Assembly: GCF_001306135.1 (NCBI RefSeq)
Contig: NZ_LGKP01000018.1
Location: 1 to 64,000 of the forward strand
DNA: 64,000 nucleotides
Reading direction: 5' to 3'
From: Herpetosiphon geysericola
Lineage (GTDB): Bacteria; Chloroflexota; Chloroflexia; Chloroflexales; Herpetosiphonaceae
Under the pieces are notes generated by a model that was not told the DNA's origin, searched no databases, and worked only from the letters and a program-made list of their open reading frames with translations. Of this stretch, positions 9,090 through 48,657 are shown one piece after another. A program made the translations under genes and the position numbers. The number at the start of each line of letters is the position of its first letter. Positions within the stretch are counted from its first letter, which is position 1.

Positions 9090-9454
9090 TTCATGCTGTC
9101 GTTATTGATGGCGGCAGTCACGCATGGCGAACCTAGTGGTGCGTGCTGCTCAGCGGATGCCCAGTGCCAGTGCTTGAACGCGCAAGCACACGGCATACCA
9201 TGCCGCAGTGGCACGTTAGGCATCTGCACAGATTTGTGCGCGACTTCCTGAGCACCTGCCTAATGGCGTGTCGGATCGGTGTTGGTAGACTTGTTAAGGG
9301 TGTGCGCATTCTGGGAATAGTGGCAGATGGACGATGCGCTGTGTTTGTCGGCATGGCGGTTTTTCGATGCGTCTGTCCATTCCTTGATTCGGCACATAGA
9401 TTGTTGTGTGTTGTTCTCATGGCGTGCCATGCAGAATCGTTGGTTGGAGACTCT
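9090..9454. other. Leader region of treZ, no gene seen
   Basis: The treZ reading frame stays open upstream to 9143, but that segment has low-quality composition (many Cys, Arg, Val), and enzyme homology begins only after 9455. I see no separate gene here. Confidence 0.45.
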
Positions 9455-11350
9455 ATGCATCATGATCCCTTTTGGCATCCGCCGCTTGGCCCAATTCCGG
9501 CTGAGCATGGTTGCTATCGCTTTCGCGTCTGGGCACCCCATGCTGATTCCATGACCGTGGTACTTGAAACGGTTCCGCCGCGCCGGATTCCCATGGACGC
9601 GGTTGGTGATGGCTACTATGAGGCGCTGGTCGCCGATGTTGGCCCCGGAACCCTGTATCGCTATGGCTTAACGGAAACGCTCATACGTCCTGACCCGGCT
9701 TCTCAAGCCCAGCCCCAGGGCGTGCATGGGCCATCAATGCTTGTTGATCGGGCGTTTGCCTGGCATGATGCGGATTGGGATGGCCTCGCGCTCCACGACT
9801 ATGTGATCTATGAACTGCATGTCGGAACGTTCACGCGTGCTGGGACGTTTGATGCCATCATTCCTCATTTGGACGGCTTGAAAGACCTTGGCATTACCGC
9901 GATTGAATTAATGCCGCTTGGTCAGTTTCCCGGCACGCGCAATTGGGGCTACGATGGGGTCTATCCGTTTGCGGTTCAGGATTCCTACGGTGGGCCGCTT
10001 GGCCTCAAGCGCTTGGTTGATGCGTGTCACGCGCGTGGCCTCGCGGTGGTTGTGGATGTGGTCTACAATCACCTCGGGCCGGAAGGCAACTATCTTGCCG
10101 ACTATGGCCCATATTTTACCGACCGCTATTCGACCCCATGGGGGACCGCCATCAATTTTGATGGGCCAGGCAGTGATGCCGTCCGCGACTTTTTTATCGC
10201 CAATGCCTGCTTCTGGTTCAGCGAGTTTCATATTGATGCGCTGCGCCTGGATGCCGTGCATGCCTACCTCGACTTTGCGGCGGTCACGTTTCTTGAACGC
10301 TTGACGGCGGCGGTGGCCGATCTGGCGACCGTCCTTAGTCGTCGCTGCTTGCTGTTTGCTGAAAGCAATCGTAATGATGCTCGCACCATTACGCCTCGTG
10401 ACCAGCATGGGTTTGGGTGTGATGCGCAGTGGAATGACGATTTTCATCATGCCTTGCGTACCGTCCTTACGGGTGACCGAACGGGCTACTATCAGGATTT
10501 TGGTGCCGTGGCCGATGTGGCGACGGCTTACCGTGATGGGTTTGTCTATACGGGGCAGTATTCCCCCTTCCGTGACTGCCGCCATGGATCACCAGCTAGC
10601 CATCTGCCTGCGGCGCGCTTCATTGTCTTTGCCCAAAACCATGATCATGTTGGGAATCGCATGTATGGGGAACGACTGGGCGCGTTGGTCTCCTTTGAGC
10701 GGCTGAAAATCGCCGCTGGGCTGGTGCTGCTTGCCCCCGCAATTCCCTTGCTGTTTATGGGCGAAGAGTATGCGGAGTCCGCACCATTTCTCTACTTTGT
10801 TGATCATGGTGATCCTGATCTGCTGGCGGCGATTCGCGAGGGGCGGCGGACGGAATTTGCTGCGTTTGCCTGGGATGGAGAGCCTCCGGATCCGGCTGAC
10901 CCCGCAACATTTCAGCACTCCATCCTACAACCGGAGTTGCAGATCCAGGGCCAGCATGCGGTCTTACGGGCATGGTATCGCACGCTGCTCCAGTTGCGCC
11001 GATCCATCCCCGCGCTTGCGACGCTTGACCGCACCCAGATGACCGTCACCTGCGATGCGCTCCAAGGGGTGCTCAGCATTGAACGGTGGGCCGGGTCAAG
11101 TAGGGTGATGCTGATGGTCAATTTCCATGATGTTGCACAAGCGGTACCGTTGCCTGCAGGACGCTGGCACGGTCACCTCGATTCTGCGGCGCTCGCATGG
11201 CAGCCTGATGGTCAGGCGCACGATGCGGGCCTCGCGCTGGATGATCAGGTGGTCGTTGGTGAGACGCTCATGACGCTCCCGCCAACGTCGTTTCGGGTGC
11301 TTGTGTGGGTGGCGGAGCACGTTCCTAGTAGCCATGAGGACACCGTATGA
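9455..11350 (+). CDS. treZ: Malto-oligosyltrehalose trehalohydrolase
   Basis: A GH13 enzyme that releases trehalose from maltooligosyl-trehalose, the second step of the TreY-TreZ pathway. The start at 9455 (MHHDPFWHPPLGPIP) has TTGGAGA just upstream and gives 631 residues, a normal length. An N-terminal carbohydrate-binding-like domain (CYRFRVWAPHADSMTVVLE) precedes the barrel. Barrel motifs are VVDVVYNHLG, the nucleophile Asp in DALRLDAVHA, the acid Glu in LLFAESNRND and NHDHVGNR. The stop overlaps the treY start by ATGA, indicating translational coupling. Confidence 0.93.
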   Translation: MHHDPFWHPPLGPIPAEHGCYRFRVWAPHADSMTVVLETVPPRRIPMDAVGDGYYEALVADVGPGTLYRYGLTETLIRPDPASQAQPQGVHGPSMLVDRAFAWHDADWDGLALHDYVIYELHVGTFTRAGTFDAIIPHLDGLKDLGITAIELMPLGQFPGTRNWGYDGVYPFAVQDSYGGPLGLKRLVDACHARGLAVVVDVVYNHLGPEGNYLADYGPYFTDRYSTPWGTAINFDGPGSDAVRDFFIANACFWFSEFHIDALRLDAVHAYLDFAAVTFLERLTAAVADLATVLSRRCLLFAESNRNDARTITPRDQHGFGCDAQWNDDFHHALRTVLTGDRTGYYQDFGAVADVATAYRDGFVYTGQYSPFRDCRHGSPASHLPAARFIVFAQNHDHVGNRMYGERLGALVSFERLKIAAGLVLLAPAIPLLFMGEEYAESAPFLYFVDHGDPDLLAAIREGRRTEFAAFAWDGEPPDPADPATFQHSILQPELQIQGQHAVLRAWYRTLLQLRRSIPALATLDRTQMTVTCDALQGVLSIERWAGSSRVMLMVNFHDVAQAVPLPAGRWHGHLDSAALAWQPDGQAHDAGLALDDQVVVGETLMTLPPTSFRVLVWVAEHVPSSHEDTV

Positions 11351-14300
11351 ACCAATCTCCGTTGTTCGATTCACGGGCGACATCAGCGCGCCTTCCGTTG
11401 GCAACCTATCGCTTCCAGCTGCATGCGGACTTTACGTTCTTTGATGCAGCGGCCCTAGTTCCCTATCTCCACCAGCTTGGAATCAGTGATTGTTATGTAT
11501 CGCCTATTTTTACGCCACGGGCGGAGAGTACGCATGGCTACGATATTTGTTCCTATGGAGAACTGACCCCGTGGCTTGGTGGCACTGATGGGTTTTGGAC
11601 GCTTGCCAACGCGCTCAACGCCCATGGCATGGGCCTCATTGTCGATATGGTTCCCAATCATATGGGCATCGGTGCGGCCAATGCGTGGTGGATGGATGTG
11701 CTCGAAAATGGCATTAGCTCGGTCTATGCCCCCTATTTCGATATTGATTGGCAGCCGAGTAAGCGGGAACTGGCGAATCAGGTCTTGTTGCCCATTTTAG
11801 GTGATCACTTTGGGGTGGTGATCGAACAGGGCGCGATTCAGCTGCACTATGACCAGGGTGCATTCTTTCTCCAGTACGCCGAGACACGCTTGCCGATCGC
11901 ACCACGCACGGCAGGGCTGGTGCTTGAGGATGCACGCCCGCTGCTCGAAGCACAGCTCCCTGCGGATGATCCAGGCCTCCAAGAGTTTTTGAGTATTCTG
12001 ACCACGGTGGGCTATTTACCACCGCGCGGTGCGGATGATCCGCTCAAATTGATGGAACGACGGCGGGAGAAGGAGATCATCAAGGGCCGCTTGGCAAGCC
12101 TGACGACCGCCAATGCGACGGTGCGCCGTGTCCTTGATCAGACGCTTGGTCGCTACAATGGCAATCCTGACGAGCCAGCAAGTTTTACGCACCTCACCCG
12201 TCTGCTCGATGGCCAAGCCTACCGCCTTGCCTTCTGGCAGGTCTCGTCGGAAGAAATCAACTATCGGCGCTTTTTTGATATTAACGAGCTTGCCGCAATT
12301 CGGGTGGAACACGACGCGGTGTTTCGGGATACCCATACCCTGCTTTTCGATCTCATCGCTGCGGGTGCGATTACGGGGTTGCGCATCGATCACCCGGATG
12401 GGTTGTGGATGCCGGCTGCCTACTTTGCACGGCTGCAAACAGAAGCGCTCACCCGACGTATTGCCCAGGATCAAGGCCTTGCGGATGCCCAGCTTGACGA
12501 CATTCGCGATCGCGCGGCGGCGTGGGTGCATGATCGTGCGCATCATGGCACCCCTGACACCTCGGCTACGCCAGCCACATGGCCCTTGTATGTGGTCGCC
12601 GAGAAAATCTTGGCCCATGGAGAGGCGTTGCCGCAGGACTGGGCGCTGCATGGAACCACGGGCTATGATTTTCTGAATGCAGTCAATGGTATCTTTGTTG
12701 ATAGCCGTCATGGTCGTAGCTTCGACACGATCTATAGCACGGTGTGTGGGACTGAGCAGGCGTTCTCTGAAGTGGTGCTGGCCAAAAAAATGCTGATCAT
12801 GCAGGAAGCCATGGCCAGTGAGATTGCATCGCTCAGCTATCAGTTGGAGCGGCTTACCGAGCGCACCCCACGCTATCGTGATTTTACCCTCGGTGGCTTG
12901 ACGACCGCGATTCGCGACCTCATTGCACACATGCCTATCTATCGGACCTATATCGACCCGATTGCCCGGCGCGTGAGCGACCATGATCGCCAGTGCCTTG
13001 AACAGGCGACCGATGCGGCACTGCGTCAGCGCTACCGCACCAGCGGTTCCGTCCTAATCTTTCTGCGGGATACGCTGCTCTTGCGCACGCTTGATACCTT
13101 CGCACCGGACGACCGTGATCGGCTGGCCCAGTGGATTTTGCGCTTTCAGCAGATGACCGGCCCCATTATGGCCAAAGGTGTCGAAGATACCGCGTTTTAT
13201 CTCTATAACCGCTTGATCTCGCTCAATGAGGTTGGCGGCGAGCCTGCCCTGTTTGGGCAATCGCTTGATGCCTTTCATCGGCAGAATCAAACACGCCACC
13301 AGGACTGGCCATCCAGCATGTTGACGCTCGCGACGCATGATACCAAGCGGGCAGGGGATGTCCGGGCGCGGATAAATGTGCTGTCAGAAATCCCGAAGCG
13401 CTGGTGGCTGCATGTCAATCGTTGGCGCAAACTCAATGCCACCCACAAAATCATGGTTGATGGCGTTCCTGCACCCGATGCGAACGATGAATATCTCCTG
13501 TATCAAACGCTGCTGGGTGCATGGCCCGCTGGGGAGTGTGATGCGGCCACGTTTGCGACCTTTCGGGACCGGATTATCAGCTTTATGCAGAAGGCCACGC
13601 GCGAAGCCAAAACCCATACCAGTTGGGTGAATCCCAACGCCGACTATGATGCGAGCTTAACCGCCTTTGTGACCGCATTGTTGCCGGACGACCGCACCAC
13701 CCACTTTCTTGCTGATTTTATCCCGTTCCAGCAGGAGATTGCCCGGGTGGGGGCGGTGAATAGTTTAAGCCAAACCCTGTTCACCTTGACGGCCCCTGGT
13801 GTACCCGATTGCTATCAAGGCAGCGAGCTGTGGGATTTCAGTCTCGTCGATCCCGATAATCGACGACCGATCGATTATGCGCTTCGCCAGTGGCTGCTTG
13901 GCGAGATCCAGCAGCGCGCGCAGACCGACCGACGGGGTGTGGCGCAGGATCTGCTCGAGCATTGGGCAGATGGCCGGATGAAACTCTTCGTCATAACCAC
14001 CCTGCTGACCTACCGCCGGGCCAATCCTGATCTGTTTTTAACGGGTCGGTATACGCCTCTCACCATCGTCGGCCCGCAGCGAACCATGGTCTGCGCCTAT
14101 ACCCGTCAGGTGGGCGATACCACGCTGCTCGTGGTTGGGCCGCGTTTGGTCGCAGCGCTGATGGCAGCGCATGATCGGTTTCCGCTTGGTGCGGAGGTGT
14201 GGCAGACCACCCGCGTCTGTTTGCCTGCCACGGACGCGGGTGTGCGGTATCGGAATCTGTTGACCTGTGCCATCATCGTTCCGGATGGGCCAGCCCATCG

Positions 14301-14388
14301 GCCAACGCTCGCGCTTGGCACGATTCTGTGTGATTTCCCCATCGCGGCGCTCGAAGCGATCACCAGCGATGAGGACAGCGTGGGATAA
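11347..14388 (+). CDS. treY: Maltooligosyl trehalose synthase
   Basis: A GH13 intramolecular transglucosylase that turns the reducing end of malto-oligosaccharides into an alpha,alpha-1,1 linkage. Motifs are LATYRFQLHADFTFFDAAAL at the N-terminus, IVDMVPNHMG, the nucleophile Asp in GLRIDHPDGL, the acid Glu in VVAEKIL and LATHDTKRAGDVRAR. The APGVPDCYQGSELWDFSLVD segment is typical of TreY. Length (1013) is at the long end for the family. The start overlaps the treZ stop. It is convergent with the GlgX fusion, with 9 bp between stops and no terminator visible. Confidence 0.93.
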   Translation: MNQSPLFDSRATSARLPLATYRFQLHADFTFFDAAALVPYLHQLGISDCYVSPIFTPRAESTHGYDICSYGELTPWLGGTDGFWTLANALNAHGMGLIVDMVPNHMGIGAANAWWMDVLENGISSVYAPYFDIDWQPSKRELANQVLLPILGDHFGVVIEQGAIQLHYDQGAFFLQYAETRLPIAPRTAGLVLEDARPLLEAQLPADDPGLQEFLSILTTVGYLPPRGADDPLKLMERRREKEIIKGRLASLTTANATVRRVLDQTLGRYNGNPDEPASFTHLTRLLDGQAYRLAFWQVSSEEINYRRFFDINELAAIRVEHDAVFRDTHTLLFDLIAAGAITGLRIDHPDGLWMPAAYFARLQTEALTRRIAQDQGLADAQLDDIRDRAAAWVHDRAHHGTPDTSATPATWPLYVVAEKILAHGEALPQDWALHGTTGYDFLNAVNGIFVDSRHGRSFDTIYSTVCGTEQAFSEVVLAKKMLIMQEAMASEIASLSYQLERLTERTPRYRDFTLGGLTTAIRDLIAHMPIYRTYIDPIARRVSDHDRQCLEQATDAALRQRYRTSGSVLIFLRDTLLLRTLDTFAPDDRDRLAQWILRFQQMTGPIMAKGVEDTAFYLYNRLISLNEVGGEPALFGQSLDAFHRQNQTRHQDWPSSMLTLATHDTKRAGDVRARINVLSEIPKRWWLHVNRWRKLNATHKIMVDGVPAPDANDEYLLYQTLLGAWPAGECDAATFATFRDRIISFMQKATREAKTHTSWVNPNADYDASLTAFVTALLPDDRTTHFLADFIPFQQEIARVGAVNSLSQTLFTLTAPGVPDCYQGSELWDFSLVDPDNRRPIDYALRQWLLGEIQQRAQTDRRGVAQDLLEHWADGRMKLFVITTLLTYRRANPDLFLTGRYTPLTIVGPQRTMVCAYTRQVGDTTLLVVGPRLVAALMAAHDRFPLGAEVWQTTRVCLPATDAGVRYRNLLTCAIIVPDGPAHRPTLALGTILCDFPIAALEAITSDEDSVG

Positions 14389-14397
14389 ACAGCATGA

Positions 14398-17364
14398 TCA
14401 GCGCGTGTGGAGGAATCGCTGGATGAGCGGGCCAACCCGCGTCCGCCATGTACCTTCATTGTGTTCGGCATCAGGCAGTTCGGCATACCAGAGATCACGA
14501 TTGCGCGTATAGCCTTTTGTTTCAAGCATGGCGCGGAGGGTTTGCACATCAGCAACGCAGCGTGTGCCCTCCGCCGCGCCAACCTCAAGCACGATCTGTC
14601 CGCCAACGAAGGGAGCCTGTTCCACCATGGCAAGGACGGCATGGTCCGCAAACCAGAGCGCCGGACTCAGCACCCCAACAAACCCAAAGATGCTCGAATG
14701 GGCAAAAAAACCATACAGGCTGATTAATCCCCCCATCGATGATCCCACGAGCGCGGTTGTCTGCCGTTCCGGACGCGTGCGAAATTGGCGATCAATCAGT
14801 GGTTTGAGGGTTTCCACGAGAAACGTGAGATAGGCATCACCGCGTCCGCCGCCATGATCCGGATCAGCAAGTGGACTATATTCATCATTGCGGATGGCTC
14901 CCATGTTGGGAATGCCCACAATGATGGCGCCACTTCCATCGTGGGCGAGGTGCTCCATCGTTTCGTCAACCGCCCACTCGGCACCAAAACTGGTCATCTG
15001 ATCAAACAGATTTTGCCCATCATGCATATATACAACCGGATAGCGCTGGTCTCCGTCATCATAGTCCGGTGGAAGATAGACCTGGATATCGCGAGCATTC
15101 CCCAGTTCGGGACTCCAGATATGGGCAAGGACGACCACCGTTCCCGTCAGCGTGTGCTGGTGGAGTTGACGCGCTGCTAAGATCGCCGCTGGTGTCTGCA
15201 GCGCGGTTGCATCCTGCGCATCCATGGACGGAATCGGATCGCCGCTCGGCTCTTGACAGAACAACGTCAGCGCATGCGCTGGCAGACGGTACGCATCACC
15301 AGGTTTCCAGCATGCATCTGGTGGCGATGGTCGGTGCGCGGTTTCGATGAGCACGGTCCATGGGGTGCCGTTGGGATCGCCAGGGAGGTGCCATGGAACG
15401 TCTTCGTCGCTCGTATTGAGGAGCAACAGTAACAGATCGTCTTCCACGAGATCACCGGTTGCGTCATGCTCATCGAGCGCTCGTCCGTTGAGCAGCATCC
15501 CAATCGTTAACACCGTGCCATCCTGCCATTCATCCGTTGTCATCTCCTGCCCATCAGGTCGATACCATTCAATATCATTGATATCTTGGCCATAGATCCG
15601 GCGACCCTGAAAAAACGTTCGTCGATGCAGGAGTGGGTGATCATGGCGCACACGCACTAAACGGCGGGTAAAGTCCAACAGCTGTTGGCGCTCGGCAGTG
15701 AGCGTCCAATCGACCCAGGTTAAGGGGCTATCGTGGCAGTAGGCATTGTTATTGCCGTCCTGCGTTCGTCCGCGTTCATCGCCTGCAAGTACCATCGGCA
15801 CCCCCTGCGAGAGCAACAGTGTTGCGAGCAGATTCCGTTGTTGTTGGGCACGAAGCGCGTTAATCGCTGGGTCTGCGGTTGGGCCTTCCACGCCACAGTT
15901 CCAGCCGTTATTTTCATCGTCGCCATCAGTATTGTTGTCGCCATTGGCGTGGTTGCGTTTGCATTCGTAGGTGACTAGGTCGTGGAGGGTAAACCCATCG
16001 TGCGCCGTAATAAAATTGATGCTCGCGTAGGGTCGTCGCCCGGTATCCTGATAGAGATCACTCGATCCACTCAGGCGATACCCCAGTTCGGCAATCTGCG
16101 CCTGATCCCCCCGCCAGAAGCGGCGGACGGTATCACGATAGCGCCCATTCCATTCAGCCCAGCCCACCGGGAAGTTGCCCACTTGATAGCCCCCAGGGCC
16201 GACATCCCATGGCTCGGCAATCAACTTAACCTGCGAAAGGATGGGATCTTGATGGATCGTATCGAAAAAGGCCGAAAGCCGATCGCCATCGTATAACCCA
16301 CGGGCGAGGGTTGCCGCCAGATCAAAGCGAAAGCCATCGACATGCATCTCGGTGACCCAGTAGCGCAGGCTGTCCATGACCAGCTGTAACGTCCGCGCAT
16401 GCAGCATATTGAGGGTATTGCCAGTGCCGGTGTAATCAAGATAATAGCGTGGTTCATCGGGCATTAACCGATAGTAGGTTGGATTATCACAGCCCTTCAT
16501 CGAAAGTGTTGGCCCCAGATGATTGCCTTCACAGGTGTGGTTATACACCACATCCAGAATGACCTCAATCCCTGCGGCATGCAAGGCTTTGACCATCTGC
16601 TTAAATTCAGTGACGTGGCCACCTGCATCGCCACACCGACTATACCGCGCGTCAGGCGCAAAAAAGCTGAGCGTATTGTACCCCCAATAATTCCGGAGTC
16701 CCCGTTCGATCAGATGCCGATCATCAAGGAAATGATGAATGGGCAATAACTCAACGGCCGTAACCCCTAAGGATTGGAGATAGGCGATCACCGGTGGCGA
16801 TGCCAGCCCTGCATACGTGCCACGCAGATCAGGTGCGAGGTCAGGATGCTGTGCGGTTAACCCTTTCACATGAACTTCGTAAATCAGAGATTCGTGGAGC
16901 GGGGTGGCTGGATGGCGATCATCGCCCCAGTCGAAACGCGGATCGATCACCACACACCGTGGCATATAGGGCGCACTATCACGATCATCGGCGATGCGGT
17001 CGTCGCCGCCAATCGGATAGCCAAAGACCGCATCATGCCAGGTAAGCTGACCGTGAATCGCCTTGGCATACGGATCAAGCAGCAGTTTCTGAGGATTGAA
17101 GCGCAGTCCAGCCTCAGGATCATAGGGCCCTGTCACCCGATACGCATAGCATTGTCCTGGCTGAAGTCCAGGCACCGACCCATGCCAGACAAAATCGGTC
17201 TGCTCGGTGAGGGGCAGGCGTATTGTTTCGCGGGGTGCGGTTGCTGAATCAAAAAGGCAGAGATCAACGGCTGTCGCATGTTCGGCAAAAAGAGCAAAGT
17301 TAACGGCATGACCGTCCCAGGTTGCGCCCAGCGGGTACGGCGTGCCAGCAGTGATAAATGACAT
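14398..17364 (-). CDS. glgX: Glycogen debranching enzyme (GlgX/TreX) fused to an esterase domain
   Basis: Residues 1 to about 690 form a GH13 isoamylase-type debranching enzyme: [32 protein letters not shown], the nucleophile Asp in [11 protein letters not shown], the acid Glu in [12 protein letters not shown] and [11 protein letters not shown]. It would supply linear chains to TreY. Residues about 715-988 are an alpha/beta-hydrolase of the Fes/putative-esterase type ([14 protein letters not shown], nucleophile Ser in [14 protein letters not shown], possible catalytic His in DAEHNEGTW). I start at the ATG at 17364 ([13 protein letters not shown]), where family similarity begins; an in-frame ATG at 17433 would add 23 residues. 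GlgX alone is normally about 650-710 residues, so the fusion is unusual. Confidence 0.9.
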
Positions 17365-17965
17365 AATAGCCGAGACCTTTCCGGTTAACTGAATAGAATG
17401 CGCTGGATGCAGCGGTCGCATGGGCATGGGCAATCGTGATTGTGGATAAGCCGATCCATGTCCGTGAATCTGTGACGATTCGATCCATGCCCATACTCAT
17501 GCGATGAGATCGAGTCTACCAGTCGCATGCTGCGGATCCATTAGGCAGATACCTCATGCTTCGCCGCTCATCGCGAGGGGCGCTTGGGCATTCGCCCAAA
17601 TGTGCGTTTGTGCAGGGTCAGTTGCCTATCAGGATTAAGCGAGGACTGGCTATGGAAATGCATGACGACTGATATGCAGCCATCCATGCGCCAGTCTTGG
17701 TTTACATAACCGTGCAACTGTTTGCACTCTACCCGTGGATCCGCGTCGTGCCCGCAGCGTTGCTTTGCGCATGGCGACGCGGAGGATAGCAATGGGCTCG
17801 ATGAATCGTGGCAGGAGTGGCCTTGGGTAGTGTGCTGCGGCACTCGTCCAAGGGTTGACGTATTATCACGATCCAGCAGTCAATCAGGGAGGGTTGATGA
17901 ATCCGATTTGTGGCGGGTATCGCGTTGCGGAGATTGGGAATGAGATTCTCTTTTCTATCTCGCTA
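17365..17965. other. Intergenic stretch upstream of glgX, no supported gene
   Basis: About 600 bp. A minus-strand frame at 17568-17843 is open but rich in His, Cys and Ser with no ribosome-binding site. It should contain the glgX promoter, which I could not define. Confidence 0.4.
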
Positions 17966-18015
17966 AAACGTCAACAGGGCCGTGATACATCCCTATCACA
18001 GGCCTGTTGACGTTT
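17966..18015 (-). terminator. Stem-loop at the end of the decayed operon copy
   Basis: AAACGTCAACAGG-GCCGTGAT (17966-17986) pairs with ATCAC-A-GGCCTGTTGACGTTT (17995-18015). It corresponds in position to the hairpin at 28708-28751 after the intact copy, but with a different sequence. The stop codon of the 17971-18525 ORF lies inside its arm. Confidence 0.65.
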
Positions 18016-18525
18016 ATAGAACGGCAGCATGGTTTGTTCCGCCTGTGGTATGGTGACCGTCGGCGGTTTGGTGATGGGCAGATGGCAGCGCGGACAGCGG
18101 TCGTGCCATTCGGCAAAGAGCGGATGGCTGTCGCGATGCTCACAGCGAGCCTGTGCCTCATGGAGGTGATAGGGGCGAAGGCGGGCAAACCAGAACTCAG
18201 CGGTATAGGCGCCTGCCTTGGGGATTTTTGCGCGCTGCTTGTCAAGGGTTGCCAACGTGGCCGGATCAACGACCTCCGCTACGAGGCTACGCAGCTCTAA
18301 TCCCTTGATTTCACGCAATTGATCGTTCGTTGCAACACGCGCCAGCATTGCGTCCTTCGACGCGATGATTGCTGCAAGATCCGTGGCTGCTTGCTGCTCC
18401 GTTACCAACCAATCCGCGAGTGCGCCGCCGGGTTGTAATTCGGCGGCAAAGAGTGGGTAGCGCTTGCGCAGGCGATTGTTTTTGCGCTTGACCCGTCGCT
18501 TTACCCGCTCGTCGAAGGTCAGCAT
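17971..18525 (-). CDS. Paralogue of the 28753-29262 protein (unknown family, Cys pair)
   Basis: 184 residues. The first 68 are nearly identical to the 28753-29262 product: a basic start (DERVKRRVKRKNNRLRKRYP), then AAELQPGGALADWLV and AAIIASKDAMLARVA. The middle diverges. The C-terminal third returns to near-identity, with a CEHR...WHDRCPRCHLP knuckle that could bind zinc. It is 15 residues longer because the stop after LPF is replaced by TAT and translation reads into the hairpin. AGGAGG precedes the start. It is part of a duplicated, decaying segment, and the upstream partner is a pseudogene. Confidence 0.65.
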   Translation of the reverse strand: MLTFDERVKRRVKRKNNRLRKRYPLFAAELQPGGALADWLVTEQQAATDLAAIIASKDAMLARVATNDQLREIKGLELRSLVAEVVDPATLATLDKQRAKIPKAGAYTAEFWFARLRPYHLHEAQARCEHRDSHPLFAEWHDRCPRCHLPITKPPTVTIPQAEQTMLPFYKRQQACDRDVSRPC

Positions 18526-19052
18526 GCGAGTGCCTCCTCTGAATCAAGCGCAATCAGCACAGCAGCCAAAACATGCTTACACAATTGCCCACCGCCATGA
18601 CTCCAGAATCCGCGACATTGGCAGGTAAAGCCCTCGGTATGGTCGATGCCATTGGCCAGCGTCACGGTGTAGGCTTTTGATCCCTGTACTGTAAATGTGG
18701 TCGCATCGCTGCGGGTCACCTGCTGGCTGAGGACAAGCACCACCGCATCATAGAGTTGGCGGCGCGAACAATCTCCGGCGATGAGCAGGGCTTGCTGCGC
18801 CCGAAAGCACCAACGGTCATCTGCCGTGGTGTTGCTCTAGAGCAAGCTCGCTAGCGGACTGCTGGGCGGAATCGGTTTGAGGGCCGTGGCGGTAATCGAG
18901 GTGTGTGCGCAGTGACTGGGCAGAATCTCATCACAGCGGACAAGGAGCAGCGCTGCCGAACGATGCATTGCTGGGGTGGGTGCCGCCATGGTGATGGCGG
19001 CAGTGGGTTAGCCAAAGTGGGTGAGGGTGGCGCGTTGGATGATGGTTTGCAT
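18519..19052 (-). pseudogene. SWIM-finger protein pseudogene (two nonsense codons)
   Basis: Same length (534 bp) and order as the intact gene at 29256-29789. From the ATG at 19052 it reads MQTIIQRATLTHFG and then hits TAA, where the intact copy has CAA. Further on, CTC-TAG-AGC replaces CTC-CAG-AGC near 18837-18842. Both are Gln-to-stop changes of the C-to-T type. The distal part (18519-18743) stays open and still holds CQCRGFWSHGGGQLCKH. A short truncated protein from internal codons is possible but unlikely. Confidence 0.85.
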
Positions 19053-19068
19053 GGTGATTCCTTTCTAC

Positions 19069-19130
19069 CCATGCCACGCAAGCCGTCGTTCGTGTATGTT
19101 GGTAGAGCTGCCTTTGCCGATGACGAGATG
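19069..19130 (-). pseudogene. radC 3' remnant
   Basis: Directly upstream of the SWIM pseudogene, the minus strand matches the last codons of the RadC gene at 29812-30420 (VIGKGS...ERRLAW in the same frame). The radC stop is displaced by a few codons. Similarity ends abruptly near 19130, where GATGCTGTCACT replaces GATGGTCAAGTAC. This marks the breakpoint of the duplicated segment. Confidence 0.75.
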
Positions 19131-19216: not shown

Positions 19217-22200
19217 CTATAATGATCCATGGTTATTTCCTTCATTCGGCATGCTAGATGTTGAGGCTCCTAACCATTCCAAACTGTTCCGTTGTGCCGC
19301 TGTTAATCCCGTGGTCGCCGTGATCGTTAATCCTGCATACGGTTGGTTGATCGCAAGCGTTTGGGCTTTAGTGCCTGTAGGGAGATGCCATACGCTGATT
19401 GTTGCATTACCGTTGCCACAGAAGAGGTATACCCCGTCGTGACTAAACCGTACACTGCGTACCCGTCCTACATGCCCGGATAAGCATTGCATCTGCTGTC
19501 CGGTTGTCGCATCCCACACATACACATTGGGACTCGAGCCACCCGTCGCAATCCATTGCCCATGGTGAGTCCAATCAACTGTCCAGACCTGACCTTCAGG
19601 ATTGGTGATGATCTGTTGGCATTCCTGCGTCGTAATATCCCAGATACGGATCGTGTGGTCATCACAGCCTGAGACGATGCGTTGCCCATCAGGGCTAAAT
19701 GTAATCGCCCAGATGGAGTTTGTATGTCCGGTTAGTATGGCAAGCGGCGTTGCTTGATCATGACGCCAAATACGAATGGTGTGATCGTCGCCGCCGCTTG
19801 CTAAGTAGCGGCCATCAGGACTCCACGCGAGTGACCAAACCCATCCATGATGACCACGATACGAGTGGGTTACATGACCCGTTGTTCGGTCCCAAATATA
19901 AAGAGTGTGATCTTCTCCACAGGCTGCGATGAATTGTCCATCGGGGCTAAAACTGATGGCGCGAACCCAGCCCCGAGCATCGGTGAGCCGCATGGTTGGT
20001 TGCTTGTCCTGAAGATGCCATAGGTGAATCGTCTGTTCTTTGGCGATTGCCAGCAGGTGCGCATGGGAGGTATAGGCAATCGCTTTACAATGCTGGGTTT
20101 CGTTGGATAACCCATACGCGCGTATCGGTTCTTCCCGAAGATTCCAGATGGTGACTGGTTGTTGTTCGCCACAACTCATAAGGTAGCCATCATCGGGACT
20201 GATGACTAAATTCCAAATGAGACCATCATGACCCTGAATCTGATGGCGCAAACGTCCACTGGTGGCCTCCCACACGCGCAGACTGCGATCACTACTGATA
20301 GAAATAAGATCATGGGTTGTATGGCTAAAGAGCAGACCCCGTACCCAGTGATGATGGGCGTTGATCGTATAGTGGGGATTGCCACTGGTCATATCCCACA
20401 GCCGAATGTGCCGATCAGCTCCTCCACTGGCAAGATATGCTCCATCTGAACTCAAGCACAGCGTTAATACCGCGTCGTGATGTCCCAGCAAGGTAGTTGT
20501 TAACCGCTGATGGACATAATCCCAGATATGAATCGTACAATCGCTCCCAGCACTGATTAAGATCGGTTCGTTTGGGCTAAAAACGAGTGACCAGACTGTC
20601 CCTTGATGACCATCCAGTGTTCCTTGGCGCTGGTAGTTTGTGCTATTCCAGAGGTGTATCCGATGATCTTTGCCTGCACTGGCAAGTGTTTGCCCATCAT
20701 GACTCAGGGCCACGCTACAAATCCAATCATCATGAGCGTGCACCCGCGCAATTAATCGGTTATCTTGCCAATCCCAGACGCGGAGATCGCCATCTTCCCC
20801 TCCACTGAACACGTACTGACCAGTCATATCGAAGGTAATACTGAGCACACGGCCAATATGATCGCTTAATGTCTGGATACACTGTCCGTCGGGAAGATTC
20901 CAAATCTTGATCGCGCCATCATCGCTCGCGCTGGCGAGGTGATGTCCGGTTGGACTAAATGCGAGGGCGCGAACCCAATCGTGATGCGCGGGAATCGACC
21001 AGCACAGCTTAAACTGGTGCGTATGCCAAATCAACAGCTCACCGTAGACACTTGCGCTTGCCAACAGGTTGCCATCGGGACTTTGTGCAAGCGCAATTAA
21101 TCCACCAAAACTTGGAATAAAATGCGTTTGTGACAGATCGCAGCCCGTTAAATCAAGGGTTGCAATCGCGCGATCCTGAAGATTAACCTGCCATATTGGT
21201 TTAAAGCGAAAATCAAACTGCTGCAGATCTGTTTGGAGTTCGAGACAGAGATTCAAAATATTGCCAGGGGCATAGCCCATTTCTGGCATGGGGCGTGGAT
21301 GAAAGGTTGCCAGCAATGCTTGGAGGGATCGGATTGTTTGGTCCCGCCCATCGATTAAGAGCAGGTGTTGGATCAGCGGTTGAATGATTGCTTGGCGTTG
21401 TTGTTCGCGAATGATTGTGATCGCGTCAGCCTTGAGCAGGGCATGCCGAATCAGGAGATGGGGGCGTTGGTGACGAATTTCCTGCACGAGTTGGTCAATC
21501 AAGCATACATTCAGATACTCTAAAATAACGCTATGTAAGCGAAAACCTGCGTTGTGCTGTTCAATCAACGAACGGCGTACCAGCGATTCAAGGGTCTCTA
21601 AAAGGACATGCTGCCATGGCGAGCGCACTAAGTTGGCCTTAAGCGTCGCAATGGTCGTGGGCTGGCGTTCGATGCTCAACCAATACATGACTTCTTGTTC
21701 ATGCTCCGATAAACGACTTAATTGTTGATGGAGTATCGTGCGAATATCACCGACCAACGGCTGTTGGTGGAGTAAAAACGCCGCAATATCCCCGGCACAT
21801 AACGCTTGAATACTTTGCGCCACTAACTTGAGCGTTAACGGATTGCCCGTGTACTGCGTGGTTAATTGCTGCCAACTGGGTTCATCTCCATGAAGGTGAT
21901 ACGGCTGAAGTAAGAGCTGGGTCTCATGCTCGGCAAGGCCAGTCAGCGTGAGGATACGGGTTGTGTCACTCTGGATGTGATTGAACCCGACTGGTTTTTC
22001 ACGACTGGTGATGATGATGCAGCTCTGATGCCGACGTTGACTGATCGCAGCGAGCAGCTCAGCATATTCACGATACTGCTGATGATATTGTCCAGCAGGG
22101 TAATCCGATCGCAGTAATGATTCGAAATTATCTAAAATCAGCAGGCAGCGATAGCGTGTGAGATACATGATGAAGCAATTCAGCCGTTGTTGAAAGTCGG

Positions 22201-22885
22201 TTGGATACGCATCTGGTGGATTTGGCTCAATCCGATAGAGGCAGTCTAAAAGATACTCATTGGCCGAGAGTGGGCGATTGAGGGAACGCCAGATAATGAC
22301 GGTGACGTCCGGTTTGAGCATCTGTGCCAGGGTAGTGATTAACGTTGTTTTGCCCATCCCCCCGAGTCCAAGTACCGCAATAACTCGACAGCGGTCGTGG
22401 GTCACCCAGGTGGTTAATTGGGTTAGTTCTGTGCTGCGGCCAACAAAATGCTGAATGTCCGGGGCTTCTCCCCAATCATAGACAGTATATGGTGCTGATT
22501 GTGCTGGTGATTGAATTCGGATGTTCGGTGGGGCTGGACGTTTCCCATAGTGAGATGCAAGATCCACCACCTCAGTCCATGTAGACAATGGTTTAAACCC
22601 AGAGTGTTGAAAAACGACGTTTAGTAACCTCAGGAGTTGTTGCTGTGCCTCGATCGGCTGATGGTTTGCAAGGTGTTCCCATATCAGCGTGGCCAAGGCG
22701 GCAATGTAGCTTGGTGGACAACGAATCTGATCCTGTTCATAGCGCATAATGGTGGTATGGGCAACACCAAAATACCGTGCTGCCTCTTTTTTTGAACGAA
22801 AGACCCATGATCGCAGATCACCCAGAAATGCACCGAGGCCATCATCGGGATCAAAGCTGGGAAGTGTAAGCGGTTGGTGGAACAT
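19217..22885 (-). CDS. HTH-NB-ARC-WD40 STAND regulator
   Basis: 1222 residues from the ATG at 22885 (MFHQPLTLPSF). N-terminal HTH: SKKEAARYFGVAHTTIMRYE (about residues 33-52). NB-ARC NTPase: Walker A VLGLGGMGKTTL (about 173-184), Walker B RCLLILDNFESLL (about 258-270) and the downstream GNPLTLKLVA motif. A linker leads to about 14 WD40 repeats (about residues 590-1215), seen as repeated GHxxxV-SPDG-LASGGxDxxIRIWD units. Such STAND proteins are held inactive by the propeller and switch on ligand binding; the HTH suggests transcription control. It is divergent from the secreted protein, with palindromes between them. It could also be a defence protein. Confidence 0.9.
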   Translation of the reverse strand: MFHQPLTLPSFDPDDGLGAFLGDLRSWVFRSKKEAARYFGVAHTTIMRYEQDQIRCPPSYIAALATLIWEHLANHQPIEAQQQLLRLLNVVFQHSGFKPLSTWTEVVDLASHYGKRPAPPNIRIQSPAQSAPYTVYDWGEAPDIQHFVGRSTELTQLTTWVTHDRCRVIAVLGLGGMGKTTLITTLAQMLKPDVTVIIWRSLNRPLSANEYLLDCLYRIEPNPPDAYPTDFQQRLNCFIMYLTRYRCLLILDNFESLLRSDYPAGQYHQQYREYAELLAAISQRRHQSCIIITSREKPVGFNHIQSDTTRILTLTGLAEHETQLLLQPYHLHGDEPSWQQLTTQYTGNPLTLKLVAQSIQALCAGDIAAFLLHQQPLVGDIRTILHQQLSRLSEHEQEVMYWLSIERQPTTIATLKANLVRSPWQHVLLETLESLVRRSLIEQHNAGFRLHSVILEYLNVCLIDQLVQEIRHQRPHLLIRHALLKADAITIIREQQRQAIIQPLIQHLLLIDGRDQTIRSLQALLATFHPRPMPEMGYAPGNILNLCLELQTDLQQFDFRFKPIWQVNLQDRAIATLDLTGCDLSQTHFIPSFGGLIALAQSPDGNLLASASVYGELLIWHTHQFKLCWSIPAHHDWVRALAFSPTGHHLASASDDGAIKIWNLPDGQCIQTLSDHIGRVLSITFDMTGQYVFSGGEDGDLRVWDWQDNRLIARVHAHDDWICSVALSHDGQTLASAGKDHRIHLWNSTNYQRQGTLDGHQGTVWSLVFSPNEPILISAGSDCTIHIWDYVHQRLTTTLLGHHDAVLTLCLSSDGAYLASGGADRHIRLWDMTSGNPHYTINAHHHWVRGLLFSHTTHDLISISSDRSLRVWEATSGRLRHQIQGHDGLIWNLVISPDDGYLMSCGEQQPVTIWNLREEPIRAYGLSNETQHCKAIAYTSHAHLLAIAKEQTIHLWHLQDKQPTMRLTDARGWVRAISFSPDGQFIAACGEDHTLYIWDRTTGHVTHSYRGHHGWVWSLAWSPDGRYLASGGDDHTIRIWRHDQATPLAILTGHTNSIWAITFSPDGQRIVSGCDDHTIRIWDITTQECQQIITNPEGQVWTVDWTHHGQWIATGGSSPNVYVWDATTGQQMQCLSGHVGRVRSVRFSHDGVYLFCGNGNATISVWHLPTGTKAQTLAINQPYAGLTITATTGLTAAQRNSLEWLGASTSSMPNEGNNHGSL

Positions 22886-22929
22886 CGCAACGCATCCAAT
22901 GCTACTAAATCGTCCAGATATCTGATCGA

Positions 22930-23010
22930 AAGGAGCTGTCAATCTTGCATAGACAGCTCCTTCTATAATACGCAATCTATTGCCAAAATGGTGCGCACAT
23001 CGTGCGCACC
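22930..23010. promoter_or_regulatory. Divergent control region with two palindromes
   Basis: AAGGAGCTGTC (22930-22940) and GACAGCTCCTT (22952-22962) are perfect inverted arms. TATAAT at 22964-22969 is a -10 candidate for the plus-strand gene. GGTGCGCAC (22990-22998) and GTGCGCACC (23002-23010) form a second perfect palindrome with a 3-nt centre. The GTGCGCAC core recurs in the RiPP control region at 26527-26534. Likely an operator zone for the STAND regulator or another factor. Confidence 0.6.
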
Positions 23011-25237: not shown

Positions 25238-25272
25238 TCAAGGCTGCGCCAAGGATTCTGGCGCAGCCTTGA
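25238..25272. terminator. Bidirectional terminator between convergent genes
   Basis: TCAAGGCTGCGCCA (25238-25251) and TGGCGCAGCCTTGA (25259-25272) are perfect 14-nt arms with a 7-nt loop. They lie exactly between the stops of the secreted protein (25219) and the minus-strand glycosyltransferase (25278). Confidence 0.8.
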
Positions 25273-25277
25273 TGTAC

Positions 25278-26435
25278 TTAATCGCCTAGATTGCTCGCAA
25301 CAAGCTGTTCAAGGAAAGGAACAGCAGTGCTGATAGGGGGATACGCTTCCATTGTCGCTTGCAAGGCTTGAGCCTTTGCCCGATAGCATGGATTCTGGAT
25401 TAACTCCCTGAGGGTTTGCTGGATCACCAAAGGAGTTAACTGCTGGCTATCAAGGGCAATCCCAACCCCTAACTCAGCACACCGTTGGGCATGGTCAGGC
25501 TGATCTGCCCCAAGTGGAATAATGATTACGGGAAGTCCATGGCTCAGTGCCCCGACAAGACTACTAAACCCTCCATGACAGATCACTGCATCACAGTGCG
25601 GTAAGATCTGCCATTGGGGAAGATAGCGAACAATCGTGATATGTGCTGGTTGCACCCCGAAAACCATTGGATCGTGTTGTTGACCAATGCTCATAACAAG
25701 GTGATAGGGTTCAGTTTGAAAGGCGTGAAGAATCGTTTCAAAAATATGGAGGTTATAGCCATAAATGGTGCCAAGTGTGACATAGATAGTGGGTCGATCG
25801 GATGGAAGGATAATTCGTTCGGAGGTGGAGCGTGTTTCGCGGTAGAGCGTTGGGCGAAATCGCAATGTTGTGGGTGGTAAGGCCACATGGGGCAATTGAT
25901 AGGGTTCTGCAAAACAGGAAAGATGGGCATAACGATAGAGCAGTGCATACCCTTCAGCACATTCAAGATTAAATTGTTGACATAATTTTTGAACTGCCAA
26001 GCCTAATAACGATGGATCACGATTGGCATTAGCGAAAAAACTTACTTCAAATGAAACATGGGGAATAGTGCATGCCTCGGCGGCGATACATCCACTATAC
26101 TCAAAAGAATTGCGCACAATTAAATCAGGCTGCCATTGATACCCAATCGCTAATAGATCGGGCAACATTGCGCTTGCAAGTTGGCCTGCATACATATTCG
26201 CCAAGATCCATGCTCGTTGATCTACCTCATGAACTGGGGGATTTACGGGTGGAACAGCATGTAAGCTCGGATAGCCTGCCTGGAACCATTGAAAACCCGC
26301 ATGTTCAACGGCTTGTTGCAGATCGCCCCCTGTTGCGAATGCAACCTGATGGCCTGCATCCACACATGCTTGGGCTAGTGGTACGAGCGGATGAAAATGA
26401 CCAATCACGGGATGGGTGGTAAACAGTATTCGCAT
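25278..26435 (-). CDS. Glycosyltransferase, GT1/MGT type
   Basis: A GT-B enzyme of the UGT/macrolide glycosyltransferase kind, which moves a sugar from a nucleotide sugar to a small-molecule acceptor. The N-terminus ILFTTHPVIGHFHPLVPLAQ and the donor-site motif CHGGFSSLVGALSHGLPVII followed by PLGADQPDHAQRCAELGVGI are diagnostic. Length (385) is typical. AGAGGA lies about 8 nt before the ATG. It is divergent from the 27-residue peptide and P450 genes across a 178-bp region with operator-like repeats. I infer that it glycosylates the P450-modified peptide, but an unrelated acceptor is possible. Confidence 0.85.
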   Translation of the reverse strand: MRILFTTHPVIGHFHPLVPLAQACVDAGHQVAFATGGDLQQAVEHAGFQWFQAGYPSLHAVPPVNPPVHEVDQRAWILANMYAGQLASAMLPDLLAIGYQWQPDLIVRNSFEYSGCIAAEACTIPHVSFEVSFFANANRDPSLLGLAVQKLCQQFNLECAEGYALLYRYAHLSCFAEPYQLPHVALPPTTLRFRPTLYRETRSTSERIILPSDRPTIYVTLGTIYGYNLHIFETILHAFQTEPYHLVMSIGQQHDPMVFGVQPAHITIVRYLPQWQILPHCDAVICHGGFSSLVGALSHGLPVIIIPLGADQPDHAQRCAELGVGIALDSQQLTPLVIQQTLRELIQNPCYRAKAQALQATMEAYPPISTAVPFLEQLVASNLGD

Positions 26436-26491
26436 CGAATGAATCCTCTGAGTTGAGCATATTCACCGAGCATACTCCTGATGGATTAATA

Positions 26492-26545
26492 GGTGCATGC
26501 ACCGGCTTTATGTGCGTCGATCGTGCGTGCGCACGCTTTATGCAC
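26492..26545. promoter_or_regulatory. Operator-like repeats between glycosyltransferase and RiPP precursor
   Basis: Two 23-nt direct repeats start at 26493 and 26523, 30 bp apart, and agree at about 18 positions. Each combines a palindrome with GCTTTATG: GGTGCATGCACC at 26492-26503 and CGTGCGCACG at 26526-26535. The three-helical-turn spacing fits cooperative binding of a dimeric regulator. GTGCGCAC is shared with the site at 22990-23010. Confidence 0.55.
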
Positions 26546-26613
26546 CCCCCATTAAAGTACGTATGTGGTTGATAACAACCGCATGGAACACTTTTATTAG
26601 GAGGAATGTCGTT

Positions 26614-26697
26614 ATGAAGAAGGTACTGCACAAAGTGGCAATTCGCTTAGGCTGGGTTAACCGTGTTGGCCCTGGTCCAGTGTATCGCTACTACTAA
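26614..26697 (+). CDS. RiPP precursor peptide, cittilin-like (27 residues, YRYY end)
   Basis: A 27-residue peptide with a strong AGGAGGA site 8 nt before its ATG. It begins MKKVLHKVAIRLGW, a basic amphipathic leader, and ends GPGPVYRYY. Cittilins of Myxococcus come from a 27-residue precursor whose last four residues, YIYY, are cross-linked by a P450 into a biaryl and aryl-ether bicycle. Length, aromatic spacing (Y-x-Y-Y), the Pro close to the core for prolyl endopeptidase cleavage and the adjacent P450 all match. The core here would be YRYY, possibly with the preceding Val. The link to cittilin is from memory of the published system, and the chemistry is inferred. Confidence 0.85.
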   Translation: MKKVLHKVAIRLGWVNRVGPGPVYRYY

Positions 26698-26712
26698 ACC
26701 GATGATGCCGTT

Positions 26713-26736
26713 GCTGGGCTATGCTTATAGCCCAGC
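26713..26736 (+). terminator. Stem-loop between precursor and P450 genes
   Basis: GCTGGGCTAT (26713-26722) and ATAGCCCAGC (26727-26736) form a perfect 10-bp stem with a GCTT loop; T26712/A26737 extends it by one pair. It lies 15 nt after the precursor stop. A partial terminator here would give more precursor than enzyme mRNA, as is common in RiPP operons. The following T-tract is short. Confidence 0.7.
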
Positions 26737-26760
26737 AGCCTTGTTGAAAATGTGTGTGCT

Positions 26761-28118: not shown

Positions 28119-28673
28119 ATGGAGTTTATGATGCGGAATCATTGGAAAATAATCATTGGGGTGCTCCTGTTTGCTTGCTCTGGAGTTATGCTTTTTTTGG
28201 TATGGCAACGCAATCAAGCAAAACAACCGATACCGTTACCCGTTGTAGCCCAATCAACTATCGTTGAAGGTGCTGGCTATAGTCTCTATCGCTGGGAAGC
28301 AGGACTTCAACTTGTGGTGCTGTATGATGGAGCCTATACAACCAATGCTTGTACGATTGGATCGGTTGATACCGTGTCATCGACCGTCTATGGATGTAGG
28401 ATTCCATTTCACAATGGAACGATTACCACATGGTCTGTTCAGACCACTGATGGCAAAACTGGTATACTCAGTGTTGATGGCAGAACCTATCAACTGCCGC
28501 GCGAGGCAGGAGTTATTCGGGTACAGGCTGATGGAGGAGAAAATCGGATAACGGCTTTTCAACGAAACTTGCCGATGTTTCAGCATGATACGGCTGATCG
28601 TCAATTGTACCAGTGGCTAGTGCAAGATCCCGAGCTTTCGGTATTTGCTACACAGTTTGGGCTAGGAAACTAA
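28119..28673 (+). CDS. Membrane-anchored protein of the RiPP locus
   Basis: 184 residues from the ATG at 28119. GGAG at 28121-28124 would instead favour the ATG at 28131 (MRNHWKIIIGV). One N-terminal transmembrane helix, IIIGVLLFACSGVMLFLVW, precedes an extracytoplasmic domain of about 145 residues rich in beta-type sequence (YSLYRWEAGLQLVVLYDGAY, TTDGKTGILSVDGRTYQLP) with two Cys that could pair. The start lies 20 nt after the P450 stop, so the genes are probably cotranscribed. Family not recognised. Immunity or a receptor for the product are possible guesses. Confidence 0.7.
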   Translation: MEFMMRNHWKIIIGVLLFACSGVMLFLVWQRNQAKQPIPLPVVAQSTIVEGAGYSLYRWEAGLQLVVLYDGAYTTNACTIGSVDTVSSTVYGCRIPFHNGTITTWSVQTTDGKTGILSVDGRTYQLPREAGVIRVQADGGENRITAFQRNLPMFQHDTADRQLYQWLVQDPELSVFATQFGLGN

Positions 28674-28707: not shown

Positions 28708-28751
28708 CGCCAAGCGGCCCGTGATCAATCTCGATCACGGGCCGCTTGGTG
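28708..28751 (-). terminator. Strong stem-loop ending the long minus-strand operon
   Basis: CAAGCGGCCCGTGATC (28711-28726) pairs perfectly with GATCACGGGCCGCTTG (28733-28748), with further pairs outward. On the minus strand it directly follows the stop of the 28753-29262 gene. The plus-strand RiPP operon ends at 28673, so it probably serves both directions. Confidence 0.75.
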
Positions 28752-28752
28752 T

Positions 28753-29262
28753 TTAGAACGGCAGCATGGTTTGTTCCGCCTGCGGTATGGTAACCGTCGG
28801 CGGTTTGGTGAGGGGCAGATGGCAACGCGGACAGCGGTCGTGCCATTCGGCAAACTCGCCATGGTTTTTGCGGTGCTCACAGCGAGCCTGTGCCGCATGG
28901 AGACAATGCTCACGAAGTCGAGCAAACCAGAACGAGTGCGTATAGACCCCTGCGATCGGTATTTTTGCTCGTCGGGTATCAAGGGTTCCGATCGTGACCG
29001 CATCGACCACCGCTGCTGTGAGACTGCGGAGGATTAATCCACGTGCTTCGCAGCGGGCATCATGGGCGGCTACGCGCGCCAGCATTGCGTCCTTCGACGC
29101 GATGATTGCTGCAAGATCCGTGGCTGCTTGCTGCTCCGTTACCAGCCAATCCGCGAGTGCGCCGCCCGGTTGTAATTCGGCGGCAAAGAGTGGGTAGCGC
29201 TTGCGCAGGCGATTGTTTTTGCGCTTGACCCGTCGTCGGACACGCTCGTCGAAGGTCAGCAT
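28753..29262 (-). CDS. Unknown protein with CEHR/CPRC knuckle, last gene of operon
   Basis: 169 residues. The start is highly basic (DERVRRRVKRKNNRLRKRYP). The middle is helical, and CEHRKNHGEFAEWHDRCPRC near the C-terminus gives a CxH...CxxC zinc-knuckle pattern. The C-terminal TVTIPQAEQTMLPF is shared with the paralogue at 17971-18525. The ATG overlaps the end of the SWIM gene, and AGGAGG lies within that gene. Family not recognised; the coupling suggests it acts with the SWIM protein, perhaps on nucleic acid. Confidence 0.7.
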   Translation of the reverse strand: MLTFDERVRRRVKRKNNRLRKRYPLFAAELQPGGALADWLVTEQQAATDLAAIIASKDAMLARVAAHDARCEARGLILRSLTAAVVDAVTIGTLDTRRAKIPIAGVYTHSFWFARLREHCLHAAQARCEHRKNHGEFAEWHDRCPRCHLPLTKPPTVTIPQAEQTMLPF

Positions 29263-29789
29263 GCGAGTGCCTCCTCTGAATCAAGCGCAATCAGCGCGGC
29301 AGCCAAGACATGCTTGCAGAGTTGCCCGCCTCCATGGCTCCAAAAGCCTTTGCATTGGCAGGTAAAGCCCTCGATATGATCAATGCCATTGGCCAGTGTC
29401 ACGGTGTAGGCTTTTGACCCCTGCACCGTGAACGTGGTCGCATCGCTACGGGTCACTTGCTGGCTAAGGACGAGCACGACCGCATCATAGAGTTGGCGGC
29501 GCGAACAATCCCCGGCAATTAACAGGGCTTGCTGCACCCGAAAACACCAGCGGTCATCCGCCGTGGTTTTGCTCTGGAGCAACGTGGCCAAGGGGCTGCT
29601 CGGCGGAATCGGTTTGAGGGCCGTGGCCGTGATCGAGGTGGGTGCGCAGGAACTGGGCACAATCTCGTCACAGCGGGCAAGGAGCAGTGCTGCCGAGGTA
29701 TGCAGCGCTGGAATGGGTGCGGCCATGGTGATCGCCGCAGCGAGTTGGCCGAAGTGGGTGCGCATGGCGGTTTGGATGACGGTCTGCAT
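29256..29789 (-). CDS. SWIM zinc-finger protein
   Basis: 177 residues from the ATG at 29789 (MQTVIQTAMRTHFGQ), with GAAAGGAA upstream; the frame stays open further upstream by chance. The SWIM motif is CQCKGFWSHGGGQLCKH (CxC...CxH) near residues 149-165. Before it lies the usual YTVTL-x-GIDH-EGFTCQC strand pair. SWIM fingers bind DNA or protein and often accompany helicases and recombination proteins. Here it sits between RadC and the zinc-knuckle protein. A decayed copy lies at 18519-19052. Confidence 0.8.
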   Translation of the reverse strand: MQTVIQTAMRTHFGQLAAAITMAAPIPALHTSAALLLARCDEIVPSSCAPTSITATALKPIPPSSPLATLLQSKTTADDRWCFRVQQALLIAGDCSRRQLYDAVVLVLSQQVTRSDATTFTVQGSKAYTVTLANGIDHIEGFTCQCKGFWSHGGGQLCKHVLAAALIALDSEEALAC

Positions 29790-29811
29790 GGGTCGATTCC
29801 TTTCTGATTCA

Positions 29812-30420
29812 TTACCACGCAAGTCGTCGCTCGCGCATGCTGGTATAGCTGCCTTTGCCGATGATGAGATGGTCAAGTACATCGATCTCCAAGAGCTGGC
29901 CTGCCTGAATGACCTGCTTGGTGAGCAGGATGTCCTCTGGCGAAGCCCACACCATCCCCGAAGGGTGGTTGTGCGCGAGGATGATCGAGGCGGCATTGCG
30001 GCGCAGCGGTTCGCGAAACAGGTCGGCGATGCGGCAATGGGCGGTATTGAGGGTTCCGACCACAACGGTATGCATGCTGATGACGTGCGCTCGCGTTGAA
30101 AGGCTGATCACCCGCAGTTCTTCCTGCGGTAAGTGACTCATCTCGGCTTGGAGCAAGGCCACCACATCCATCGGACTGGTGATCGGCTCGCCCATGACGG
30201 CTTCCGCGAGTTTGGCGTGGCTGATCGCGAAGGCGGTGCGGAGTCGGATGGCATGAGCACGGCCAACGAGTGGGATCAACTCCTCCTCGGTCATCCGATA
30301 GAGGGTATTCCACGACTGGTCGGCGGCCTGCCAGAGGTCGGCAGCACACATCTGATCGCGGGCGGTTGGGCGGGTCGGATTGAACAGGTCAATCAAGGTA
30401 GGAATGGCATCAATCGCCAT
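29812..30420 (-). CDS. radC: RadC-like JAB/MPN-domain protein
   Basis: 202 residues. The JAMM metal-binding motif is SIILAHNHPSG (about residues 142-152) followed by ASPEDILLTKQV. RVISLSTRAHVI and VVVGTLNTAHCR are also typical of RadC, and the N-terminal third is the usual helical part (LVGRAHAIRLRTAFAISHAK). RadC proteins are common on plasmids and integrative elements, and their biochemical role is unsettled. AAGGAGTC lies before the ATG. The SWIM gene follows after 22 bp. Confidence 0.9.
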   Translation of the reverse strand: MAIDAIPTLIDLFNPTRPTARDQMCAADLWQAADQSWNTLYRMTEEELIPLVGRAHAIRLRTAFAISHAKLAEAVMGEPITSPMDVVALLQAEMSHLPQEELRVISLSTRAHVISMHTVVVGTLNTAHCRIADLFREPLRRNAASIILAHNHPSGMVWASPEDILLTKQVIQAGQLLEIDVLDHLIIGKGSYTSMRERRLAW

Positions 30421-44437: not shown

Positions 44438-44439
44438 AT

Positions 44440-45195: not shown

Positions 45196-45234
45196 TACAG
45201 AGTTATATTTGATACTGTCTGCATAGAGGTGGAT

Positions 45235-48578: not shown

Positions 48579-48657
48579 GTAATATTGTAACCAAATCGAA
48601 TTATTTGCTAAAACATCTTTGCTTAGCAAATGACATAAACCTATAGGCGAGGATTGC

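Follow-up and report, generated by a model that had tools for sequence, protein, structure and literature searches.

Cittilin-type peptides and related P450 systems

RiPPs of the cittilin type carry biaryl and aryl ether bridges between tyrosines, and the core of cittilin itself is YIYY. In Myxococcus xanthus, CitA/CitB supply a 27-aa precursor and an adjacent P450, and the outcome is a bridged tetrapeptide (PMC8708641; PMC12352619); shandoamide, the syrinamides and citreamide are of the same type (PMC12352619). Two other kinds of RiPP invite comparison. In the atropopeptides (tryptorubin type) a P450 likewise cross-links aromatic residues, and glycosyltransferases are reported to be frequent in their P450 clusters (PMC11450843); in the biarylitides a minimal peptide is cross-linked by a P450. 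Mining has brought together >1000 P450-RiPP clusters in 11 categories (PMC12299652). Elsewhere among RiPPs, cacaoidin carries an O-glycosylated tyrosine; it is a class V lanthipeptide with GT-2 and GT-4 enzymes (PMC8068269), as against the GT1 enzyme considered here.

The locus described below lies in a window of 64,000 nucleotides, part of a plasmid-like contig in a Herpetosiphon-type genome. Its core is a short gene for a 27-aa precursor (26614..26697, plus strand; MKKVLHKVAIRLGWVNRVGPGPVYRYY) with the C-terminal core YRYY, followed by a cytochrome P450 gene (26752..28098, plus strand; PF00067, 1.6e-63); a gene for a GT1 glycosyltransferase of 385 aa (25278..26435, minus strand), a candidate tailoring enzyme, diverges from the precursor. 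The likeness to the cittilins is in the architecture: a 27-aa precursor directly 5' of a P450, with YxYY at the very C-terminus. The differences are the core, YRYY; the setting, a Chloroflexota plasmid; the divergent GT1 gene alongside; and the cargo of the window, in which no methyltransferase was seen. Our main reading, to which we give a probability of about 0.8, is that the plasmid carries here, as cargo, a minimal RiPP cluster of the cittilin type, of which GT1 is an accessory and not a conserved part. Judged from sequence, precursor and P450 would then be a further example of an already known kind of RiPP, and only a glycosylated product would be new.

The two related kinds fit less well. 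The precursor has neither the KSLK leader motif of the atropopeptides nor their longer, tryptophan-rich core (PMC11450843): its leader is MKKVLHKVAIRLGWVNRVGPGPV and its core YRYY. A biarylitide precursor has five residues (MxYxH), as against 27 ending in YRYY. Both identities were rejected.

Precursor and P450

An AGGAGG sequence stands ~8 nt 5' of the precursor ATG, and the reading frame ends ...VYRYY*. It is the only precursor-like ORF in the window, and none was found in 100 random windows. Between precursor and P450 lies a 13-bp hairpin (26710..26739, plus strand; z -4.8, reached in 0/200 shuffles), which is likely an attenuator. The P450 starts with GTG, an ATG at 26761 being a possible alternative. 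Twenty nucleotides after the P450 begins a gene for a 184-aa protein (28119..28673, plus strand) with an N-terminal membrane segment and no Pfam match, which may belong to the same operon.

One way to understand so short a frame is to deny that it is a gene at all and to take the P450 as an ordinary oxygenase. The BLAST results lean that way: queries with the 27-aa precursor returned noise only, and no homologue, from 400 Chloroflexota genomes, 396 Actinomycetota genomes and plasmids. A search by pattern gave a different result. When 394 Actinomycetes genomes were scanned at the DNA level for GGAG, 4-11 nt, ATG, 57-84 nt and TAYNNNTAYTAYTRR, exactly three matches were obtained (L186 7253, L187 7455 and L188 7913), every one a 27-aa YxYY precursor with a P450 directly 3'. 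The L186 precursor, MRKVAYRIAARLGIVDSERLTRPYIYY, has the core YIYY, identical to that of cittilin; L187 and L188 share one precursor, MRKMILTGALFARLTRKDRLTLPYSYY, with the core YSYY. The precursor of the window is 41% identical to that of L186 in a gapless alignment that includes the leader. A hairpin similar to that between precursor and P450 recurs at the same place in L187 and L188. Against the pattern scan, the P450 clade described below, the kept length of 27 aa, this hairpin and the low chance of meeting such an ORF, the idea that the frame is no gene is very improbable. The comparison comprises three pairs, all from one class (Actinomycetes), two of them near-copies. Within the 394 genomes a pattern as short as this one (ribosome-binding site, 24-33 codons, YxYY, stop) gave no false match, and it recovered precursors that BLAST with the precursor had missed.

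Closer to home the searches gave nothing comparable. GT1, precursor and P450 had no orthologue in the five other Herpetosiphon genomes searched; no YxYY ORF stood beside the P450 at the Chloroflexota P450 loci examined; and the best P450 relatives from genus-wide and phylum-wide protein searches were 34-37% identical. A plasmid match to the YIYY precursor (H28) was rejected, as it lies inside another frame and lacks the YxYY end; it adjoins a weak P450 match.

Of all the P450s found, those of L186-L188 are the closest to that of the window, at 261-284 bits; the best one from the genus reaches 257 bits. A maximum-likelihood tree was built from 34 rows, these four proteins and 30 others, CitB not among them; in it the window P450 and its three counterparts form one clade with 100/99 bootstrap/SH-aLRT support, present in all 200 bootstrap trees; a wider, quickly made tree agrees (SH-aLRT 96). 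Residues common to the clade and nearly missing elsewhere among P450s include FP(x3)MN at 89-95 (F89, P90 and M94 among them), K104 and A432. It is the homologous pairs, the P450 clade, the common residues and the hairpin that lead us to file precursor and P450 as cittilin-type. Even these closest relatives share only 34-36% identity with the window P450, and the chemistry of the product therefore cannot be read from them.

Other Herpetosiphon plasmids also carry P450s (L177, L179 and L181); these fall outside the cittilin-type clade. Their operons are different, with an XRE-type regulator and a ~360-390-aa membrane protein encoded ahead of the P450.

The proposed pathway is short. The ribosome would make the 27-aa precursor, which on its reading frame ends Tyr-Arg-Tyr-Tyr; to judge from clade and architecture, the P450 would then, like CitB in the making of cittilin, bridge the side chains of the three tyrosines so that a bicyclic tetrapeptide results; and a protease encoded elsewhere would presumably cut off the 23-aa leader. 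The range of cittilin-type precursor-P450 pairs now takes in a predatory genus of Chloroflexota, on one of whose plasmids a deeply divergent P450 could act on an arginine-containing core.

The divergent spacer

An earlier note on this DNA held that GT1 and the precursor diverge from a common region of 178 bp with two operator-like repeats of 23 bp, 30 bp apart. The coordinates bear this out (spacer, 26436..26613), and the repeats are real, though imperfect: the copies, at 26493..26515 and 26523..26545 (both written on the plus strand), agree at 17/23 positions with a period of 30. They are missing from the list of a standard repeat finder because they differ too much. Among 500 Markov shuffles of the spacer the best 23-mer pair scored 13.9 +/- 0.9 on average, and ~1% reached 17. 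Both repeats are built on a perfect palindrome of 12 bp, GGTGCATGCACC (26492-26503) in the first and GCGTGCGCACGC (26525-26536) in the second; two such palindromes within 178 bp have P ~0.0016 (0.16% of shuffles). In a scan of six Herpetosiphon genomes, exact matches to the 20-bp motif were confined to this locus, and near-matches in its own genome were about as frequent as for a reversed control. The paired palindromes are probably the operator for a locus-specific regulator of one or both promoters. Two other identities were rejected: that of an RNA element, as the fold has a z of -1.6 and Rfam gave no match, and that of a site for a global regulator, as the scan of the genus gave no exact match elsewhere and near-matches at no more than about the control rate. 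A second hairpin, ATGTGGTTG-ATAA-CAACCGCAT (26562-26587), stands just 5' of the ribosome-binding site of the precursor.

At the other end of GT1, a perfect 12-bp inverted repeat (25240..25270) lies between GT1 and the convergent beta-propeller gene. The earlier note had given GT1 a terminator of its own. The hairpin has no U-tract and is common to both genes, so that claim was dropped; a bidirectional terminator serving the two is a possible reading. That GT1 has no other partner nearby holds good, the cargo on that side consisting of beta-propeller and NB/WD40 genes only.

The glycosyltransferase

GT1 matches the profiles PF06722 (5.6e-24), PF00201 and PF21036, and aligns with CalG1 at 3.2e-32, including the GH near the N-terminus and the HGG motif. 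Its score against TIGR01426, the macrolide family glycosyltransferase, is 167 bits, under the curated cut-off of 260 bits, which leaves it outside that family. The EryCIII-like and UDPGT domains, with the GH and HGG motifs, place it among natural-product glycosyltransferases, and by these marks it is a predicted GT-B enzyme of the EryCIII/MGT/CalG1 kind. It shares fold family and motifs with CalG1 and with GT1 enzymes of the MGT/YjiC type; their substrates are calicheamicin, macrolides or flavonoids, whereas GT1 of the window scores under all curated cut-offs. Its nearest relatives in genus and family are paralogues (36-39% identity) in NRPS/PKS-type clusters, with thioesterase, adenylation and methyltransferase genes, as read from ORF starts, for neighbours. 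This company marks GT1 as a glycosyltransferase of secondary metabolism, which fits a tailoring role.

Does it belong to the peptide? A first view makes GT1 a dedicated tailoring enzyme that acts on a tyrosine hydroxyl of YRYY, with the paired palindromes switching both arms. It draws on the divergent 178-bp spacer with its two locus-specific palindromic repeats, on the natural-product family of the enzyme, on the frequency of glycosyltransferases in atropopeptide P450 clusters (PMC11450843) and on the tyrosine O-glycoside of cacaoidin (PMC8068269). Comparison with the homologous pairs weighs on the other side: in 16-kb stretches around L186-L188 (~7-8 kb on each side), tblastn detected no homologue of GT1 at E<1. 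Searches of the genus and of Chloroflexota turned up no second genome with the trio of GT1, precursor and P450; moreover, with 8 places in the genome that match PF06722, a chance neighbour would not be extraordinary. We regard dedicated tailoring as a tentative and rather doubtful reading.

The expectation that the three genes would stay together across genomes, on which the earlier note had staked its proposal, thus failed on both sides: three homologous pairs lack GT1, and the relatives of GT1, paralogues at 35-39% identity, occur without a precursor-P450 pair. Of the glycosylated P450-type RiPP that it had proposed, the P450-type RiPP with a YxYY core is upheld by the pairs and the P450 tree; the sugar, for which the divergent arrangement speaks, finds no support beyond adjacency. 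As no homologue lies near the three pairs, the five other genomes of the genus have no orthologue and the relatives sit in NRPS/PKS-type clusters, GT1 is plausibly an optional, lineage-specific gene for tailoring or self-protection, not a conserved part of the cluster. Since those relatives are paralogues, GT1 may have been recruited in this lineage.

A second view supposes that the target of GT1 is within the cell, where the enzyme would disable either the mature peptide or some foreign compound, in the manner of macrolide-inactivating glycosyltransferases. The enzyme does resemble models of macrolide-inactivating and self-immunity glycosyltransferases (NF033129, NF000362) and YjiC-type enzymes, but it scores under every curated cut-off; in addition, those cittilins and biarylitides that have been tested are reported to lack antimicrobial activity (PMC8708641), so that self-protection may be needless. 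We consider inactivation unlikely.

If GT1 does act in the pathway, it would most likely put a sugar onto one of the tyrosine hydroxyls left free in the bicycle, as decoration or for self-protection, a step to which we would give somewhat less than an even chance. The fuller proposal, that GT1 and P450 together yield a bicyclic YRYY peptide bearing a sugar and that a single operator of paired palindromes governs both arms, is rather doubtful and is put forward tentatively. To our knowledge no sugar-bearing cittilin-type RiPP has been described before. Were GT1 to act on the peptide, a sugar step would be added to this type of RiPP, and the first sugar-bearing member known to us would come from a plasmid-borne cluster in Chloroflexota.

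The plasmid and its cargo

The backbone of the contig matches plasmid pHAU01 of Herpetosiphon aurantiacus (CP000876) at 82-91%, with radC, SWIM, helicase and methylase genes on one side and ParM/FtsK-like genes on the other. Between them the cargo at 19.2-28.7 kb has a G+C of 46-50% (48.0% for GT1, 47.1% for the P450) vs ~60% for the backbone. These 9.5 kb are bracketed by an imperfect direct duplication of 1.1 kb (18012-19130 and 28749-29871), which is the SWIM/radC module of the backbone, truncated in its left copy.

A third view of GT1, as unrelated cargo that diverges from the RiPP operon by chance, takes its strength from this setting. The plasmid gathers unrelated cargo (glycogen genes, NB/WD40 and beta-propeller genes), other Herpetosiphon plasmids carry different cargo in the slot, and the homologous clusters do without GT1. 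Yet the palindromic repeat in the spacer exceeds chance, and the relatives of GT1 are biosynthetic genes. Chance is a serious contender, if somewhat short of even odds. Against our main reading, the common spacer and the low G+C that sets both GT1 and the P450 apart from the backbone favour a joint arrival of the two.

In pHAU01 the corresponding slot holds a different cargo. A scar of ~50 bp there (L175 4495-4657) matches the 3' end of the 184-aa gene, plus its hairpin; the rest of the RiPP cluster is gone. The scar suggests that the 184-aa gene, and perhaps the whole cluster, was once present in pHAU01.

Three further stretches of the same plasmid may be recorded. The cargo opens on its left with a gene (19217-22975) for a 1252-aa protein whose N-terminus is HTH-like and whose middle part is NTPase-like; many WD40 repeats are also present in it. 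A separate glycogen/trehalose cargo occupies 9143-17433, with glgB-, treY- and glgX-like genes. Finally, a defence island at 43319-53451 contains a SAVED-domain protein and a SMODS cyclase (a CBASS-like pair), together with two tyrosine recombinases, an Mrr/STAND NTPase protein and an MmeI-type methylase.
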